Positions 54,822 through 62,344 of a stretch of DNA of 64,000 nt are shown piece after piece (within the stretch, counting starts at the first letter, position 1; each line of letters opens with the position of its first letter). The stretch lies in contig NZ_JAQZAO010000001.1 in NCBI RefSeq assembly GCF_028737315.1, forward strand, positions 682,001 through 746,000. Reading direction: 5' to 3'. Origin of the DNA: Actinomycetospora lemnae. GTDB lineage: Bacteria; Actinomycetota; Actinomycetes; Mycobacteriales; Pseudonocardiaceae. Below the pieces are notes generated by a model. That model was not told the DNA's origin. It worked only from the letters and a program-made list of their open reading frames with translations, and did not search any database. The position numbers and the translations under genes are program-made.

Positions 54822-56759
54822 GTGCGTCCGTCGAACTCCCGGCGTGTCCGACAGGCCGTCCTCGTCGTGGTCGCGGCGGTCGTCCTCCTGGGCGTCAACG
54901 TCCCGCCGGCGTGGTCCTACATCAGCGAGTGGCGGCACGAGCAGCTGATCAACAGCCCGGAGTACGTGCGGCAGTACGGGCACTGGGACGTCGTCGACGT
55001 CCCCGAGGAGAGCCGGGTCAACGCGATCCACGCGGCGCTGCTGTCGTCGGGCAAGGTCCTGCTGATCGCCGGGTCGGGCAACAAGGAGGACATGTTCGCG
55101 ACGCGGGCGCTCAAGAGCCTGCTCTACGACCCGGCCACCGGGCGGACGCGGATGATCCCGGTCCCCGACGACATGTTCTGCGGCGGCCAGACGACGCTGC
55201 CCGACGGCCGCCTGCTCGTCGCGGGCGGCACCCAGCGCTACGAGAAGCTCGACGGCGCGGTGACCAACGCCGCGGGCGCGATGACCGTCAAGAACGAGGA
55301 CCCGAACGTCCCGCGGGTGCTCCCCGCGGGGACGGTCTTCGTCGGCCCGACCGGGCTGCGCTACCGCGCGACGCAGGAGGTCCGCCTCGACCCGGCGCAG
55401 AAGACCGGGCAGGGCCGGCGCACGACCGTGACCGCCTCGGAGGAGCAGGTCTTCGTCGAGGCCGTGGACCCCGGGCCCGCCGCGGTGACGCCGCCGGAGA
55501 AGTACCAGGTCGAGGGCCTGCCGCCCGACGTCGCGCGCAACGTCTACGGGCAGGGCCAGGCGATGACCCTGCGCAAGCAGGACTACCAGGGCACGGACCA
55601 GGCGTACACGTTCGACCCGGTCGGCGAGACGTGGTCGCGGGTCTCGGACATGGAGTTCCACCGCTGGTACGCGACGCTGACGCCGATGTCCGACGGCCGG
55701 GTGCTGACGACGGCCGGGCTCGACGGGGTCGGCGAGGTCCTCGCCGGGCAGACCGAGGTCTTCGACCCGACGACCAACGCCTTCACCGAGCGCAAGGACC
55801 TCCAGCACTACTTCCCGACCTACCCGGCGATCTTCGAGACCGCGCGGGCCGGGCGGATGGTCTACACCGGCGCGAACGCCGGCTACGGCCCGGCCGACCG
55901 GGGCCGCGAGCCCGGGTTCTGGGACCTCGACACCGGCGCCTTCACCGCGATCCCCGGCCTGCGCGATCCCGACCTGCTCGAGACGGCCGGCTCGGCGTTC
56001 CTCGGCCCGGTCAACGACCAGCGGATGGCCGTCGTGGGCGGGGGCGGCGTCGGCGAGAGCCCCCGCTCGACGGGGCGCATCGACTACCTGGACCTCACCG
56101 ACCCGGCGCCGCACTTCACCCCGGGCCCGGCGCTGCCCGAGGGCGTGCGCTACCCGAACCTCGTCGACCTCCCGGACGACACCCTCCTGATCTCGGGCGG
56201 CTCGCGGGACTACCGCGGCAAGGGTGGCACCAACAACCACATCGCACGGCTGCTGCACCCCGACACCGGCGCGCTGGCCCCCGCCGCCGACCCGGCCGTC
56301 GGCCGCGACTACCACACCGAGGCGCTCCTGCTGCCCGACGGCCGCGTGCTCACCGCCGGCTCGGACCCGCTGTTCGACGACGAGCAGAACCTCGTCCCGG
56401 GCACCTTCGAGCAGCGCATCGAGATCTACAGCCCGCCCTACCTGTTCCAGGGGGCGCGCCCCACGATCACCGAGGCGCCGCCGACCCTGGCCCGCGACCA
56501 GACGGCGACGATCCCGACCCCCGACGCCGGGCACATCCGCGCCGCGCGGCTGATCAAGGCGTCGACGGCGACGCACGTGACCACCACCGACATGCGCTCG
56601 GTGGCCCTCGACGTCGCCCCCACCGCGGACGGGGTGTCGGTGCACGTGCCGGAGAACCCGGCGCTCACCCCGCCCGGGCCGTACATGCTCTTCCTCGTCG
56701 ACGACCGCGGCGTGCCCTCGGTGGCGAGGATGGTGTCGGTCAGCGCACCTCCGCGGTGA
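54822..56759 (+). CDS. glxA: GlxA-type copper radical oxidase, membrane-anchored
   Basis: The 645-residue protein has a signal-anchor helix (about 10-28) and a beta-propeller of galactose oxidase-like repeats followed by an E-set domain. Residues that should form the copper radical site are in place: Cys120 (DDMFCGG) and Tyr283 (HRWYATL) for the cross-linked cofactor, Tyr497-His498 (GRDYHTE) and His585 (STATHVTTTDMR). In Streptomyces GlxA acts with the CslA synthase at hyphal tips to make or modify a glycan. GTG 54822 follows CAGGAG. It converges on the GH16-like gene, overlapping by 20 bases; a GT2 synthase is 2 kb away. Confidence 0.93.
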   Translation: MRPSNSRRVRQAVLVVVAAVVLLGVNVPPAWSYISEWRHEQLINSPEYVRQYGHWDVVDVPEESRVNAIHAALLSSGKVLLIAGSGNKEDMFATRALKSLLYDPATGRTRMIPVPDDMFCGGQTTLPDGRLLVAGGTQRYEKLDGAVTNAAGAMTVKNEDPNVPRVLPAGTVFVGPTGLRYRATQEVRLDPAQKTGQGRRTTVTASEEQVFVEAVDPGPAAVTPPEKYQVEGLPPDVARNVYGQGQAMTLRKQDYQGTDQAYTFDPVGETWSRVSDMEFHRWYATLTPMSDGRVLTTAGLDGVGEVLAGQTEVFDPTTNAFTERKDLQHYFPTYPAIFETARAGRMVYTGANAGYGPADRGREPGFWDLDTGAFTAIPGLRDPDLLETAGSAFLGPVNDQRMAVVGGGGVGESPRSTGRIDYLDLTDPAPHFTPGPALPEGVRYPNLVDLPDDTLLISGGSRDYRGKGGTNNHIARLLHPDTGALAPAADPAVGRDYHTEALLLPDGRVLTAGSDPLFDDEQNLVPGTFEQRIEIYSPPYLFQGARPTITEAPPTLARDQTATIPTPDAGHIRAARLIKASTATHVTTTDMRSVALDVAPTADGVSVHVPENPALTPPGPYMLFLVDDRGVPSVARMVSVSAPPR

Positions 56760-57420
56760 ACGTCACCCGCTCGACGGTCGTGGCCCGGTCCGAGGCCGGC
56801 GGGCCGCCGTCGAGCCAGGTGGGGAACCACGCGTTGAGGTAGAGCGGCAGGGCCTCCCCCGGCACACCGTCGGTCCACGTGACGAGCGCGCGGCCGTCGA
56901 CGGCGAAGGTCACCGTGCCGGGTGCGCGGGTGATCGTGTACTCGTGGGCGTCGGCCGTGGGGTCGAAGCCCAGCTCCTGCTCGGTGGTGTGGGTCGTCCG
57001 GCCCCCCGCGTGGGTGGTGAACAGCACCCGCCCCCGGCGCTCGCCGTGGACCTCGATGTCGACCTCGTGGGCGAGGTCGGGCGGGGCGTAGAAGAAGAAG
57101 CCCGTGAGCGAGCCCGGGGCGTCGGCCACCCGGAGGCGGGCGGTGGCGACGCCCGTCGCCGGCAGCGGCCCGGTGGCCACCTCGGCCCCGTCGAGCCGTC
57201 CCGCCGGCAGGACGAGCTCGAGCCGGCCGCCGGTCACCCGCACGTTCGCCGGGTCGACCCGGCCCCGGCCGAGGGCGTGGTCGCCGCGGGTCCAGCGCTG
57301 CGGGTCGAGTCCGTCGAACTCCTCGACGAACCCGCCGGGGCCCGGGGCGTCCACCGGGGCAGCCTCGCACGCCGGGGTGAGCGCGAGCAGGAGCACGAGG
57401 GCGAGCAGGGACGCCCTCAC
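56740..57420 (-). CDS. Secreted GH16-like protein
   Basis: A 226-residue protein with a signal sequence (RASLLALVLLLALTPACEAAP; Cys18 could be lipid-modified though the lipobox TPAC is poor). The body is a concanavalin-like beta sandwich with the GH16 catalytic signature EVDIE (119-123, in LAHEVDIEVHG) flanked by GFFFYAPPD and VLFTTHAGG, and ends DRATTVERVTFTAEVR. GH16 enzymes cut or transglycosylate beta-1,3/1,4-glucans and similar. GTG 57420 overlaps the kinase stop as GTGA. Last gene of the five-gene operon. Confidence 0.83.
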   Translation of the reverse strand: MRASLLALVLLLALTPACEAAPVDAPGPGGFVEEFDGLDPQRWTRGDHALGRGRVDPANVRVTGGRLELVLPAGRLDGAEVATGPLPATGVATARLRVADAPGSLTGFFFYAPPDLAHEVDIEVHGERRGRVLFTTHAGGRTTHTTEQELGFDPTADAHEYTITRAPGTVTFAVDGRALVTWTDGVPGEALPLYLNAWFPTWLDGGPPASDRATTVERVTFTAEVR

Positions 57421-58625
57421 GCGGACGGGAGGGTGATCCGGACGGTCGTCCCACCGTCGAGGCCGTCGTCGAGGGCGATCGTCCCGCCGTGCGCGGTGAC
57501 GATCCGCCGGCACGTCGCGAGCCCGATGCCCGAGCCGCCGTCGACCGTGCCCGGCTCGTGGACCTGCCGCAGCAGCGCGAACGCCTCCTCCCGCCGGGCC
57601 GGGGGGACGCCACGGCCGTTGTCCGCGATCTCCACCACCCACCGGTCGCCCGCCGGCCGCGCCCGCACCCGCAGCACGAGGCGGCGGTCGGGACGGGCGT
57701 ACCGGACGGCGTTGGCGACGACGTTGGCCAGCACGGCCCGCAGCTGCGTCCGGTCCCCGCGCACCGGGGGCAGGACGCCCAGGTCGAGCTGCGCGGCGTC
57801 GAGGGTGCCGGGCGGGAGGTCGTCGAGCACCTCGCGCAGCAGCTCGCCGAGGTCGACGCGCCCGACGCGCAGGGTGCCGCCGACGCGGGCGTAGGCGAGG
57901 AGGTCGTCGACCATCTCGCGCATCCGGCCGGCGGCGGCGAGGGCGCGGGAGACGTGCCGGCCCGCCGCGGGTCCGGCGTCGACGGCGGGGTGGTCGGCGA
58001 GCAGTTCGAGGAAGCCGACGACCCCGGCGAGCGGGTTGCGCAGGTCGTGGCTCACCTGGCCGGCGAACGCGGCGAGCTGGCTGTTGGACCGCTCGAGCTC
58101 GTCGCGGGCGTCCGCCAGGTCCCGCGTCGTCGCGGTGAGCGCCCGGTAGGCACGGCGGAGCTCCAGCGCGGCGACGGCCTGCCCAGCGAGCAGGTCGAGG
58201 GCGTGGCGCTGGGCGTCGGTCAGCTCCCCCGTCGCCTCGTCGAACACGCACAGCGTGCCCAGCACCGCCCCCGACGGCGACCGCAGCTGGCTCGCGGCGT
58301 AGAAGCGGACGAGGCCGAGGCGCCCGGTGACGAACGGGTTCGCCGCGAACCGCGGGTCGGCACGCGCGTCGGGGACCTCGACCGGTTCCGGGGTCTCGAT
58401 CGTCACCGCGCACATCGCGTCCTCCCGGGCGCAGACCGCCGGGGTGATGCCGACGGCGGCGACCTGGTGCTGGAAGTGCTCGCTGATGAGGTTGACGACG
58501 GCGTACGGCACGCCACAGACGTGGCTCGCGAGCGCGGCCACCGACCGCAGGTCGGGCTCGTCGAGGGCACCGTCGACGTCGTAGGGGGCGAGCAGGGCGT
58601 CGCGGTCGAGCTGGTCAGCGGGCAT
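57417..58625 (-). CDS. Soluble GAF-domain histidine kinase
   Basis: The 402-residue kinase has an N-terminal GAF domain (about 25-155; FQHQVAAVGI, CAVTIETPEPVEVPDARADPRFAANPFV, FYAASQLRSPSGAVLGTLCVFD), a short coiled coil, a HisKA with phospho-acceptor His193 (AGQVSHDLRNPLAGVVGF) and an HATPase domain (NVVANAVRYA, IADNGRGVP, GSGIGLATC, GGTTVRITLP). No membrane segments. The GAF type is the one of phytochrome/cyclic-nucleotide-like light or redox sensors; Cys37, Cys65 and Cys72 are candidates for redox or chromophore roles. Overlaps the GT2 stop by 11 bases. Confidence 0.92.
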   Translation of the reverse strand: MPADQLDRDALLAPYDVDGALDEPDLRSVAALASHVCGVPYAVVNLISEHFQHQVAAVGITPAVCAREDAMCAVTIETPEPVEVPDARADPRFAANPFVTGRLGLVRFYAASQLRSPSGAVLGTLCVFDEATGELTDAQRHALDLLAGQAVAALELRRAYRALTATTRDLADARDELERSNSQLAAFAGQVSHDLRNPLAGVVGFLELLADHPAVDAGPAAGRHVSRALAAAGRMREMVDDLLAYARVGGTLRVGRVDLGELLREVLDDLPPGTLDAAQLDLGVLPPVRGDRTQLRAVLANVVANAVRYARPDRRLVLRVRARPAGDRWVVEIADNGRGVPPARREEAFALLRQVHEPGTVDGGSGIGLATCRRIVTAHGGTIALDDGLDGGTTVRITLPSA

Positions 58626-60144
58626 CCACGACCTCGACGGGTCCGAGGACGGGGCCGGCCGCGGGGACGGGGCCGCCGGGGGCCGGGGTCGGGCCCGGGG
58701 TCGGGGTCGGGGTCGGGGCCGGGGAGGCGGTGAAGCCCACCCGCGTCATCTGTCCCCACCGTGCGCGGCGCCGCAGCAGCGAGTCGACGAGCCCGCGCAG
58801 CCGCCACCACGCCGTCACCTGCCGGTAGCCGAGGTTCTCCACCACGGTGGCCCCGAGCGCCGCGGCGAGGTCGCGCCAGCCGCGGTAGCGGTGGAACGAG
58901 AACTCCTCGACGACGAGCGCGACCAGGCTCAGCGCGAGGCCGTAACCGACGGCGACGAGGAAGAACAGCACGGCGAACGTCCCGTCGATCGCGCCCAGCA
59001 GGAGCCCCAGGAGCAGCGCGACCAGCCCGCCGATCTCGACGACCGGTGCGAGCAGCTCGAACAGCACGTAGAACGGCAGCGCCAGCACGCCGACGGCGCC
59101 GTAGCGCGGGTTGCCGATCATCGTCCGGTGACGCCACAGCGTCTCGACGAGGCCGCGGGACCAGCGCCGCCGCTGCCGGCCGAGCACCCGCACGGTCTCG
59201 GGCACCTCCGTCCACGCCACCGGCTCGGGCAGGAACACCAGCCGGTGGCGACGCCGCGCCGCGCGCAGGTGGCGGTGCAGGCGGACGACCAGCTCGGCGT
59301 CCTCGCCGAGGGTGTCCAGGTCGAACCCGCCGACCTCGACCACGGTGTCCCGGCGGAACAGCCCGAAGGCGCCCGAGATGACGACCAGGGCACCCACGGC
59401 CGACCACCCGGACCGGCCGAGGAGGAACGCCCGCAGGTACTCGACGACCTGGATCCGCGCGATCCACCGCCGGGGCATGCGCACCTCGGTGACCCGGCCG
59501 GCACTGACGGGGCTGTCGTTGACGGCGCGGACGACACCGCCGGCCGCGACGACGTGCTCGGGGTCGTCGGCGAAGGGCCGCGCCATCGCCAGCAGCGCGT
59601 CCGGGTCGAGGACGCAGTCCGCGTCGACCATGCAGACCAGCGGGTGGCGCGCGGCGTTGATGCCGGCGTTGTTCGCCGACGCCTTGCCGCCGTTCTCGGT
59701 GTGGACCACGACGAGGGGCAGGGCGGCGCGCGGCGCGTGCACCGACCGCACGGCGCCGCGGGTGGGGACGTCGTCGGGGACGACGCGGGGCACCTCGACG
59801 AGGTCGAAGTGCTCCACCAGCACCTCGAACGTCCGGTCCTTCGCGCCGTCCACGACGACGACCACCTCGAACCGCGGGTGCTGCAGCGAGAGCATCGCCC
59901 GGACGCTCTCGACGATCGTCGCCTCCTCGTCGTACGCCGGCATCACGACCGACACCCCGAGGGTGAGGGGGTCGGCGTAGGCGTCGTCGAGGTCGGCCCA
60001 GGCGCGCCGCCGCAGGTGGTGCCGGAACTCCCGCACCGCGAGCGCGATGAGGACGAGGTAGCTCGTGTTGAGGGCGACGAAGTAGCCCAGCACCACCCAG
60101 TTCGTCGCGACGACGAGGACCGAGACGACGTCGAGGACCGTCAC
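58615..60144 (-). CDS. Processive family 2 glycosyltransferase (BcsA/hyaluronan-synthase-like)
   Basis: The 509-residue membrane enzyme has one N-terminal helix (about 6-37), a GT2 domain, and at least three C-terminal membrane segments (about 348-413). The processive-synthase motifs are complete: Asp99 (VVVDGAKD), DAD 174-176 (MVDADCVL), Glu-Asp 281-282 (TLGEDAEL) and QRRRW 324-328. The tail (TASPAPTPTPTPGPTPAPGG) is Pro/Thr-rich. It should polymerise a beta-linked sugar and thread it across the membrane; no PilZ domain is visible. GTG 60144 overlaps the HEAT-repeat stop as GTGA. Confidence 0.92.
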   Translation of the reverse strand: MTVLDVVSVLVVATNWVVLGYFVALNTSYLVLIALAVREFRHHLRRRAWADLDDAYADPLTLGVSVVMPAYDEEATIVESVRAMLSLQHPRFEVVVVVDGAKDRTFEVLVEHFDLVEVPRVVPDDVPTRGAVRSVHAPRAALPLVVVHTENGGKASANNAGINAARHPLVCMVDADCVLDPDALLAMARPFADDPEHVVAAGGVVRAVNDSPVSAGRVTEVRMPRRWIARIQVVEYLRAFLLGRSGWSAVGALVVISGAFGLFRRDTVVEVGGFDLDTLGEDAELVVRLHRHLRAARRRHRLVFLPEPVAWTEVPETVRVLGRQRRRWSRGLVETLWRHRTMIGNPRYGAVGVLALPFYVLFELLAPVVEIGGLVALLLGLLLGAIDGTFAVLFFLVAVGYGLALSLVALVVEEFSFHRYRGWRDLAAALGATVVENLGYRQVTAWWRLRGLVDSLLRRRARWGQMTRVGFTASPAPTPTPTPGPTPAPGGPVPAAGPVLGPVEVVDAR

Positions 60145-61238
60145 GCCGCCGCCCCCGCCCCGGGCGCCGCGGTGAGCGCCTCGCGCGCGTGCTCCGCCGC
60201 CACGCCGCACCGGTCGGCGGCCCGGCCCAGCTCGTGCAGGGCGGCCACCCCGTCGGGGCCGACCGCGACGAGCGCCGCCGCGGCGGTGTGGGCCACCCAG
60301 TGGTGCGGGTCCGCGACGAGCCCGGCGAGGACGGGCACCGCGCGGCGGGCACCGAGCACGCCCAGCGCCTGGGCGGCGGTCACGCGCAGCGCCGTCGGCT
60401 CGTGGCCGCCGGTCGCCGCGAGGAGCGGGTCGACCGCCGCGGGGACCCCCAGCCGCCCGAGGGCCCGGGCGGCGCGCAGGCGGACGTCCGCGGCGCCGTC
60501 GGACTCCAGCGCCCGGACCAGGCGCGGGGCGGCGTCGACGGCGCCGACCAGGCCGAGCGCCTCCACGACACGGGCCCGCACCGTCGGGTCGGGGTGGTCC
60601 GCGGCGGCCAGGAGGGCCGTGCGGGCCGGTGGGCCGATCCGGGCGAGCGCCGGCACGACGGCCTGGTGGGGTACGCCGGCGCTCGTCCCGGTCAGGGCGC
60701 GCACCAGGGGCGACGCGGCCGACGGGTCGCCGAGACGTCCCAGCGAGCGGGCGGCGACGGCGCGGACGTCGGCGTCGCGGTCCGCGAGGAGGACGACCAG
60801 GCGCGCCGTGGCGCCGGGTCCGCCGACCAGGCCCAACAGGTGCGCCGCCCGGGCGCGCACGGCGGGCCGGCGGCGGCGGGCGTCGCGGAGCGCGCGGTCC
60901 ACGGCACCCCGCCGTTCGAGCAGGCCCACGAGCACCCCGCGCGCGTCGCCGCGCAGCTTCCCGAGCATCGACACCACGACCGGCTCGAGGGCGCGCCACT
61001 GCGACCGCGGCAGGGTGGCCAGCCGGTCCAGGAGGGTCGGGTCCCCGTCGCCGGCCGCCAGCGCGACCAGCGCGGGTCGCCCGGGGGCGATGCGGGCAGC
61101 GCGCCGCGCGGCGGCCCGGCGCTGCCACCAGCGCCCGGTCAGCAGGACGACGGCGAGGACGGCCAGCACCACGACCAGGACCAGCACCGCCACCAGCAGG
61201 ACCGTCCGATCGACGACCGGGCCCGCCCGCGGTGTCAC
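60141..61238 (-). CDS. Membrane-anchored HEAT-repeat protein
   Basis: A 365-residue protein with an N-terminal membrane helix (about 12-34, TVLLVAVLVLVVVLAVLAVVLLTG) followed by basic WWQRR and then about six to eight HEAT/PBS-lyase-like repeats (for example VRARAAHLLGLVG, DVRAVAARSLGRLGD, VRARVVEALGLVG, DVRLRAARALGRLG, ALRVTAAQALGVLG). Such repeats form curved scaffolds for protein contacts. No enzyme motif is present. It lies between the response regulator and the synthase with GTGA overlaps at both ends, so a coupling role between phospho-signal and synthase is likely but inferred. Confidence 0.9.
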   Translation of the reverse strand: MTPRAGPVVDRTVLLVAVLVLVVVLAVLAVVLLTGRWWQRRAAARRAARIAPGRPALVALAAGDGDPTLLDRLATLPRSQWRALEPVVVSMLGKLRGDARGVLVGLLERRGAVDRALRDARRRRPAVRARAAHLLGLVGGPGATARLVVLLADRDADVRAVAARSLGRLGDPSAASPLVRALTGTSAGVPHQAVVPALARIGPPARTALLAAADHPDPTVRARVVEALGLVGAVDAAPRLVRALESDGAADVRLRAARALGRLGVPAAVDPLLAATGGHEPTALRVTAAQALGVLGARRAVPVLAGLVADPHHWVAHTAAAALVAVGPDGVAALHELGRAADRCGVAAEHAREALTAAPGAGAAA

Positions 61239-61609
61239 CGCGCGCTGCGCGCGAGGACGGCCCGGACGCGGCTGTCCAGCTCGCGCGGGCTGAACGGCTT
61301 GGTCAGGTAGTCGTCCACGCCCCACGCGAACCCGGTCTCGATGTCGCCCTCCTGCGCGCGGGCGGTGAGCAGGATGATCGGCATCCCCGACGTCGCGGGA
61401 TCGGCGCGCAGCTCGCGACACACGTCCAGGCCGGTCATCCGCGGCATCATCACGTCGAGGACCGCGAGGTCGGGGCACGCACGGCGGGCGAGGTCGAGCG
61501 CGGCGCCGCCGTCCTCCGCGACGAGCACGTCGTGCCCGGACTGCTCCAGCTTGAACACCACGACGTCCCGGACGTCCGGGTCGTCGTCGGCCACCAGCAC
61601 CGTCGCCAC
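61235..61609 (-). CDS. Single-domain response regulator receiver
   Basis: A 124-residue stand-alone receiver: acidic pair Asp8-Asp9 (LVADDDPD), phospho-acceptor Asp52 (AVLDVMMP), Thr82 (LLTARA) and Lys104 (YLTKPFSPREL) are all present. No DNA-binding or enzymatic output domain follows, so it must act by protein contact, as CheY does. GTG 61609 is chosen for a spaced AGGGG and a normal MATVLVADD start; an in-frame TTG at 61645 and GTG 61615 also exist. First gene of the operon; its stop overlaps the HEAT-repeat start as GTGA. Confidence 0.93.
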   Translation of the reverse strand: MATVLVADDDPDVRDVVVFKLEQSGHDVLVAEDGGAALDLARRACPDLAVLDVMMPRMTGLDVCRELRADPATSGMPIILLTARAQEGDIETGFAWGVDDYLTKPFSPRELDSRVRAVLARSAR

Positions 61610-61750
61610 CGCCACCCCCTGGGCGCGCTCCGTCTTACGGCCCAATCATAGGAGGCTGAATGGACCAGCGCGCGAGCGGACCCGCGGGGCGTCGGCGCCC
61701 GGGGCGGGACGGCGAGCTCGACGTCCTCGTCGTGCGGCTCGGGGAGACCC

Positions 61751-62344
61751 TCAGGTCGCGAGCGTCACCGGCTTGTGCGCCGGCCGCCGCGCCTCGTACG
61801 CGTCGATGTCCTCGGCGTGGCGCAGGGTCAGGTCGATGTCGTCGAGGCCCTCGAGCAGCCGCCAGCGGGTGTACTCGTCGACGGTGAAGCGCACGGTGAG
61901 GTCGTCGGCGGTCACCGTGCACGCCTCGAGGTCGACGGTGAGCTCCAGGCCCGGGCGCTCCTCGATCTTCTTCCATAGCAGCTCGACGTCGGACTGCTCG
62001 ACGGTGGCCGCGAGCAGGCCGGCCTTCGACGAGTTGCCCTTGAAGATCTCACCGAAGCGCGACGAGATGACGGCCCGGAAGCCGTAGTCCATGAGCGCCC
62101 AGACGGCGTGCTCGCGCGACGACCCGGTGCCGAAGTCCGAGCCGGCGACCAGCACGGAGCCGCGCGAGTAGGGCTCGGTGTTGAGCACGAACGACGGGTC
62201 GAGGCGCCAGGAGGCGAACAGGCCGTCCTCGAACCCCGTGCGCGTCACGCGCTTGAGGTAGACGGCCGGGATGATCTGGTCGGTGTCGACGTTCGACACG
62301 CGCAGCGGCGTGCCGATGCCGGTGTGGGTGGTGAAGGCCTGCAT
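61751..62344 (-). CDS. leuD: 3-isopropylmalate dehydratase, small subunit
   Basis: Swivelling subunit of isopropylmalate isomerase in leucine synthesis. The 197-residue protein starts [31 protein letters not shown] and contains [42 protein letters not shown] and the family C-terminus. ATG 62344 follows AGGAGG. It lies 28 bases after leuC, so leuCD is an operon. Confidence 0.97.

Follow-up and report, generated by a model that had tools for sequence, protein, structure and literature searches.

How is the activity of a bacterial polysaccharide synthase set, and by which of its gene neighbours? The question is raised by a locus in a 64,000-nucleotide stretch of Actinomycetospora lemnae DNA (contig NZ_JAQZAO010000001.1, positions 682,001 to 746,000; the window), in which genes for a response-regulator receiver, a HEAT-repeat protein, a family 2 glycosyltransferase (GT2), a histidine kinase and an exported GH16 protein form an operon that abuts a gene for a GlxA-type copper radical oxidase. 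The receiver, HEAT and GT2 genes are a module conserved across phyla and into the archaea, and glxA is probably a resident neighbour with no part in the unit. From the sequence we consider it somewhat more probable than otherwise that the GT2 is a polysaccharide synthase set post-translationally by the two-component pair, with the HEAT protein as adaptor, the GH16 protein as trimming enzyme and glxA as a bystander.

Conservation of the receiver, HEAT and GT2 genes

Loci were gathered by similarity to the GT2. The 94 loci compared were the window, L004-L056 and L109-L148; L057-L059 were left out for their weak, short matches. A scan of a genome collection with the GT2 gave 56 loci, and for a phylum sample 40 of 60 places outside the window's own genome were fetched. 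Sampling is uneven, with 22 haloarchaeal loci including 14 from Halorubrum, and a gene is scored as absent when the stretch examined lacks it. At E values up to 1e-60, the GT2 subfamily was present in at least 58 of 396 drawn Actinomycetota genomes, or 44 of 237 genera (three candidates scored per genome). It is patchy within the window's own family, with at least 7 of 150 genomes positive (ten candidates scored per genome).

The upstream side could be tested in the 84 loci with at least 2.2 kb of sequence before the GT2 gene. A HEAT gene was found immediately upstream in 83, the exception being L123, in which HEAT and GT2 share one frame. Of the 84, 74 had a receiver gene no more than 2.3 kb upstream, the nearest receiver being divergent in eight of these. 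Because the profiles had been iterated on the same loci, the downstream side was used as a control; HEAT was found there in 0 of 83 loci and a receiver in 1 of 83. Both genes were upstream in all 22 haloarchaeal loci. The other, non-halophile loci of the genome scan gave 24 of 24 for HEAT and 23 of 24 for the receiver, and the phylum-sample loci 36 and 28 of 37, respectively. Among 42 gene-called loci the HEAT and GT2 genes overlap in 25 and are fewer than 30 bases apart in 36. Module loci span Actinomycetota, Gemmatimonadota, Krumholzibacteriota and haloarchaea, and the window has the same layout, with HEAT just upstream of the GT2 and the receiver upstream of both.

The first-pass annotation of this DNA had named a five-gene order confined to close relatives among the outcomes that would speak against its proposal. 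The exact order was seen solely in the window's genus (window, L004 and L006), but the receiver-HEAT-GT2 core, often with a kinase after it, recurs across phyla and in archaea. No paper listed in searches of an open-access library, with few subscription papers in it, described such a module, judged by titles, abstract openings and passages. Two candidate descriptions, PMC13390465 and PMC5898192, were set aside, since both treat other systems in the parts available.

Gene arrangement in the window

All six reading frames are open on translation, and the genes stand where the first-pass annotation had placed them (Table 1). Translation also reproduced the overlaps of 4 (GTGA), 4 (GTGA), 11 (ATGCCCGCTGA) and 4 (GTGA) bases along the minus-strand unit, and this tight packing upholds the view of one coupled five-gene unit. 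The receiver gene has a possible alternative upstream TTG start at 61645. The glxA and GH16 genes are convergent and overlap by 20 bases at 56740-56759. Upstream of the operon are genes that we take from their translations to be leuD and leuC, and beyond glxA are presumably mutT and ppk.

Table 1. Features of the window, and examples of a recurrent protein of about 730 residues at other loci
Feature	Position	Strand	Remarks
Receiver: stand-alone single-domain response regulator, no output domain	61235..61609	-	GTG start; Response_reg match
HEAT-repeat protein, membrane segment at the N-terminus; putative receiver-synthase adaptor	60141..61238	-	HEAT_2 match
GT2 membrane glycosyltransferase; proposed polysaccharide synthase	58615..60144	-	Glyco_tranf_2_3 match
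Histidine kinase, GAF-like/HisKA/HATPase_c	57417..58625	-	HisKA and HATPase_c matches
Exported GH16 protein; putative enzyme for trimming or release	56740..57420	-	Glyco_hydro_16 match
GlxA-type copper radical oxidase; probably a resident neighbour, outside the operon	54822..56759	+	NF052501 match
Protein of about 730 residues	L027:10399-12603	+	
Protein of about 730 residues	L112:8771-10951	-	
Protein of about 730 residues	C-terminus of L114:5142-8873	+	

Signalling proteins

Residues 4-115 of the 124-residue receiver match Response_reg (100 bits), and Asp52 and Lys104 are present; the sequence also shows the motifs EVDIE in the GH16 protein and DAD and QRRRW in the GT2. Of 75 related receivers, 72 retain the phospho-acceptor Asp and three have Glu instead. 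The kinase matches HisKA (53 bits) and HATPase_c (84 bits), so that the hallmarks of a two-component pair are present; its GAF_2 match (26.6 bits) is slightly under the cut-off of 28.6. In 51 of the 94 loci, including 20 of the 22 haloarchaeal ones, a histidine kinase is encoded on one strand or the other no more than 6.5 kb away. The earlier claim that the kinase and receiver belong with the synthase is supported. Sensor parts vary among loci and include GAF, CHASE3-HAMP-GAF and CHASE-PAS arrangements, a hybrid kinase with Hpt, and CheA plus a methyl-accepting chemotaxis protein (MCP). At L128:1228-5044 (minus strand) a CheA-type kinase and an MCP are encoded next to GT2 and HEAT, an arrangement in which a chemosensory array might act on this synthase too.

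Some bacterial loci encode REC-GGDEF proteins, and L126 has an OmpR-type regulator in addition. Archaea are reported to be without GGDEF response regulators (PMC5847659, in the part available), which argues for receiver phosphorylation as the common denominator.

The HEAT protein matches HEAT_2 with 124 bits and has a hydropathy peak at residues 13-31. Assignment as a phycobilin lyase or NblB was rejected (57 bits against a cut-off of 300). In L123:4985-7789 (minus strand), a single 935-residue frame joins a membrane-anchored HEAT protein to the GT2. Such fusions are not common: by Pfam labels, none besides the query was seen among the 16 matches listed.

The glycosyltransferase

The GT2 scores 92 bits with Glyco_tranf_2_3. 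Its best named match is PgaC/IcaA at 127.7 bits, far under the cut-off of 422.3, compared with NodC (49), CelA/BcsA (39.8; cut-off 699), HpnI (20) and ArnC-type enzymes (17.5). In the reverse direction, a profile of the GT2 family gave 131 bits for E. coli PgaC, 47 for BcsA, 29 for ArnC and 28 for a CslA-like protein of the window's own genome. It gave 193 and 188 bits for two deacetylase-GT2 proteins of that genome. On these scores, identification of the GT2 as CslA or BcsA was rejected. The description 'BcsA-like synthase' in the first-pass annotation was correct in the GT2 assignment and the motifs, but the BcsA label is loose. Grouping with lipid glycosyltransferases, which had been named as the outcome that would speak against a polymer synthase, was not seen in the family scores. 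In a tree of the family, from which OpgH was dropped for lack of a match to the profile, reference proteins other than two from the window's own genome have long branches, 3.5 to 7.8, and BcsA falls in a polytomy.

The DxD and QxxRW motifs of processive GT2 polymer synthases, which we take to be catalytic, are present, and D174, D176, D282, Q324, R325, R327 and W328 are invariant across 41 GT2 relatives. No PilZ match was found in the GT2 by domain scan. Related solved structures are distant and include chondroitin, cellulose and hyaluronan synthases as well as lipid-type enzymes. Membrane polymer synthase is the likeliest identity, judged from motifs and family scores. At E values up to 1e-20 there are at least 7853 GT2 relatives, and most of the 120 listed carry no specific name. 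Elsewhere in the same genome, L063 and L064 (C24 and C27) encode GT2 domains fused to a polysaccharide deacetylase, one of them also to an acyltransferase domain.

The position of glxA

The oxidase is a genuine GlxA relative, with 927 bits against NF052501 (cut-off 800) and an end-to-end alignment with 4unm; residue numbering for GlxA was sought in the available part of PMC4736821 and not found there. A survey of 18 genomes of the genus found the GT2 in three, the GH16 in four and GlxA relatives in 17. Ten same-genus stretches were compared around glxA (L070-L079). Seven (L070, L071, L072, L073, L076, L078 and L079) are without the operon and have the order ppk-mutT-glxA ... leuD-leuC, with glxA 70-96% identical. 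L075 has the same order with the operon inside the gap, and L074 has the operon, glxA and leuDC, with no match to mutT or ppk in the stretch. On the 5.5-kb draft contig L077, GT2-kinase-GH16 stands directly next to mutT, the tblastn matches being 11 bases apart and glxA absent between them. The glxA-leuD gap (56760-61753 in the window) is therefore variable in the genus, with the five-gene operon in three genomes and unrelated genes in seven. The operon is accordingly a cassette that varies within the genus, either acquired in this gap or lost from it, next to a glxA that is resident. A remnant of the operon in operon-less genomes was looked for and rejected: tblastn gave no matches in the seven glxA-leuD gaps, and blastn gave one 59-base match, in L072.

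Across all 94 loci, GlxA is near the synthase in three, all of this genus (window, L004 and L006), and the other 91, including every locus outside the genus, are without it. The oxidase was accordingly rejected as a component, and the earlier inclusion of it in the system does not stand. Oxidation of the glycan, which had been part of the same proposal, finds no support here, since glxA is resident at the site whether the operon is there or not and, among the 94 loci, accompanies the synthase in this genus alone.

In Streptomyces, cslA, glxA and an endoglucanase gene lie together, the last converging on glxA (PMC3543389, in the part available). The window resembles that cluster in that its GT2 synthase gene lies together with genes for a GlxA-type oxidase and for a glycoside hydrolase. 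It differs in its receiver, HEAT and kinase genes, which are absent from the layout as described in the available part of PMC3543389, and in a GT2 that is not CslA-like. GlxA is present in the window, but its synthase is not of the CslA type and the linkage between glxA and synthase does not extend across genomes. A nearer counterpart lies elsewhere in the same genome, which has three glxA genes: L061:165-6433 encodes, on one strand, a cellulose-synthase-like GT2 (TIGR03030, 106.6 bits; cut-off 699), GlxA and GH6. The GH6 gene is thus on the same strand, whereas the Streptomyces endoglucanase gene converges (PMC3543389, available part). A glxA gene adjoining a synthase gene need not signal a CslA-GlxA system. 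A further glxA, at L060:8740-10641, stands by genes for a BCCT transporter and an F420H2-dependent reductase.

Hydrolase-like partners

The GH16 protein matches Glyco_hydro_16 with 53 bits (cut-off 22), has the ExDxE motif as EVDIE and an N-terminal hydrophobic segment at residues 5-23, and matches beta-glucanase structures at an E value of 1e-10; NCBIfam BglS gives 60.6 bits against a cut-off of 300. The same GH16 subfamily is also near HEAT-GT2 in L117, L119 and L123, from a distant actinobacterial family (f19). This recurrence argues that the GH16 protein belongs with the GT2, in agreement with the earlier proposal. P0131, a HEAT-containing frame and perhaps a run-on, includes a GH16 part that shares 42% identity with the GH16 protein of the window.

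A protein of about 730 residues accompanies the GT2 at 31 of the 94 loci, in bacteria and haloarchaea; in L114, L122 and L133 it makes up the C-terminal portion of the GT2 frame itself. Two members had no match in Pfam or NCBIfam, and a 14-member profile had no match in the PDB. Conserved acidic and Trp positions suggest a glycosidase-like protein. Among 12 loci of f19, the GH16 occurs in three and the 730-residue protein in five, never together, which would arise by chance about one time in six. Linkage of the GT2 to kinase and hydrolase-like genes is recurrent.

Precedents

PgaC/IcaA poly-N-acetylglucosamine synthases are the best named family for the GT2. Nevertheless, it scores under their cut-off, and the PgaA, PgaB and PgaD partners are absent, with HEAT and receiver proteins instead. 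BcsA-type synthases are gated by cyclic di-GMP (c-di-GMP) through PilZ. They share with the window a membrane GT2 and the signalling control, post-translational, that is proposed for it; the difference is that the window GT2 has no PilZ match and that the recurring regulator is a receiver with a HEAT protein, to which some relatives add REC-GGDEF.

Two further parallels come from archaea. In Methanobacteriaceae, receivers of the MTH_548 type are fused to a BcsA-like PF13641 glycosyltransferase (PMC5847659); a receiver is likewise tied to a PF13641 enzyme, but in one fused protein, and HEAT repeats are unmentioned in the part of the source available. The Halobacterium HEAT_PBS protein OE2401F binds CheY and is needed for CheY output (PMC2666748). 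It resembles the proposed adaptor in linking a receiver to a machine, which in that case is the archaeal flagellum, and OE2401F is reported, in the available part, with HEAT-like repeats only. A role of the HEAT protein as receiver adaptor, and coupling of a receiver to this type of glycosyltransferase, are both supported by precedent.

Proposed mechanism and alternatives

In the proposed mechanism, the GAF kinase would pass phosphate to the stand-alone receiver, which would then dock on the HEAT protein at the membrane. This adaptor is predicted to contact and gate the GT2, and the GT2 to make and extrude a glycan. The exported GH16 protein may trim or release this glycan. More tentatively, and at a little under an even chance, the module may be a second general switch for GT2 polymer synthases, in which a phospho-receiver acts through a membrane-anchored HEAT protein with interchangeable kinases, shared by Actinomycetota, other phyla and haloarchaea and distinct from c-di-GMP and PilZ. 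If so, it would be a phospho-controlled counterpart of c-di-GMP control over surface glycans, also in archaea, and given the number of GT2 relatives one biochemical test would inform many genes.

Several observations weigh against the proposed mechanism. No receiver was found within 2.3 kb upstream in 10 of the 84 loci, nine of which belong to the phylum sample, with its 37 testable loci. In 43 of 94 loci there is no kinase in the stretch examined, many stretches being short, and 11 of the 20 haloarchaeal loci with a kinase encode it on the opposite strand. The REC-GGDEF proteins may point to involvement of c-di-GMP at some loci, and the L123 frame is a lone case that could be a frameshift instead of a fusion. 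The HEAT protein might be a scaffold for assembly or localization of the GT2, with the kinase and receiver passing phosphate elsewhere or being merely co-expressed. The tighter linkage of HEAT (83/84) than of the receiver (74/84), the eight divergent receivers and the presence of the module at some loci beside REC-GGDEF or a DNA-binding regulator would fit such a scaffold. We nevertheless regard it as unlikely, given the upstream receiver in 22 of 22 haloarchaeal and 23 of 24 non-halophile genome-scan loci against 1 of 83 downstream, retention of the receiver Asp in 72 of 75, and the receiver-glycosyltransferase fusions of methanogens (PMC5847659, available part).

That GlxA joins the GT2 and GH16 proteins on one glycan, polymerized, trimmed and oxidized as by Streptomyces CslA-GlxA, is very improbable. 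The 20-base convergent overlap, the adjacency in the window, L004 and L006, and the working CslA-GlxA synthase complex of Streptomyces lividans (PMC11022532, in the part available) favor it, but glxA holds an identical position without the operon in seven genomes, the draft contig has GT2-kinase-GH16 beside mutT without glxA, and only three of 94 loci, all from this genus, have the oxidase close to the module. Moreover, the genome has a separate CslA-like/GlxA/GH6 cluster, whose CslA-like protein is only distantly similar to the window GT2 (28 bits with the family profile). Transfer of single sugars onto a lipid or protein carrier is a distinctly unlikely, if less remote, function for the GT2. 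The family has no characterized member in the literature available to us, solved structures of lipid- and metabolite-type transferases are also among the matches of its N-terminal part, and its profile scores ArnC about as high as the own CslA-like protein and not far under BcsA. Against this stand the 127.7 bits for PgaC/IcaA, compared with 49 for NodC, 40 for CelA, 20 for HpnI and 17.5 for ArnC-type enzymes, and the high profile scores of E. coli PgaC and the own deacetylase-GT2 proteins. In addition, QRxRW is invariant in the family and the hydrolase-like partners recur.

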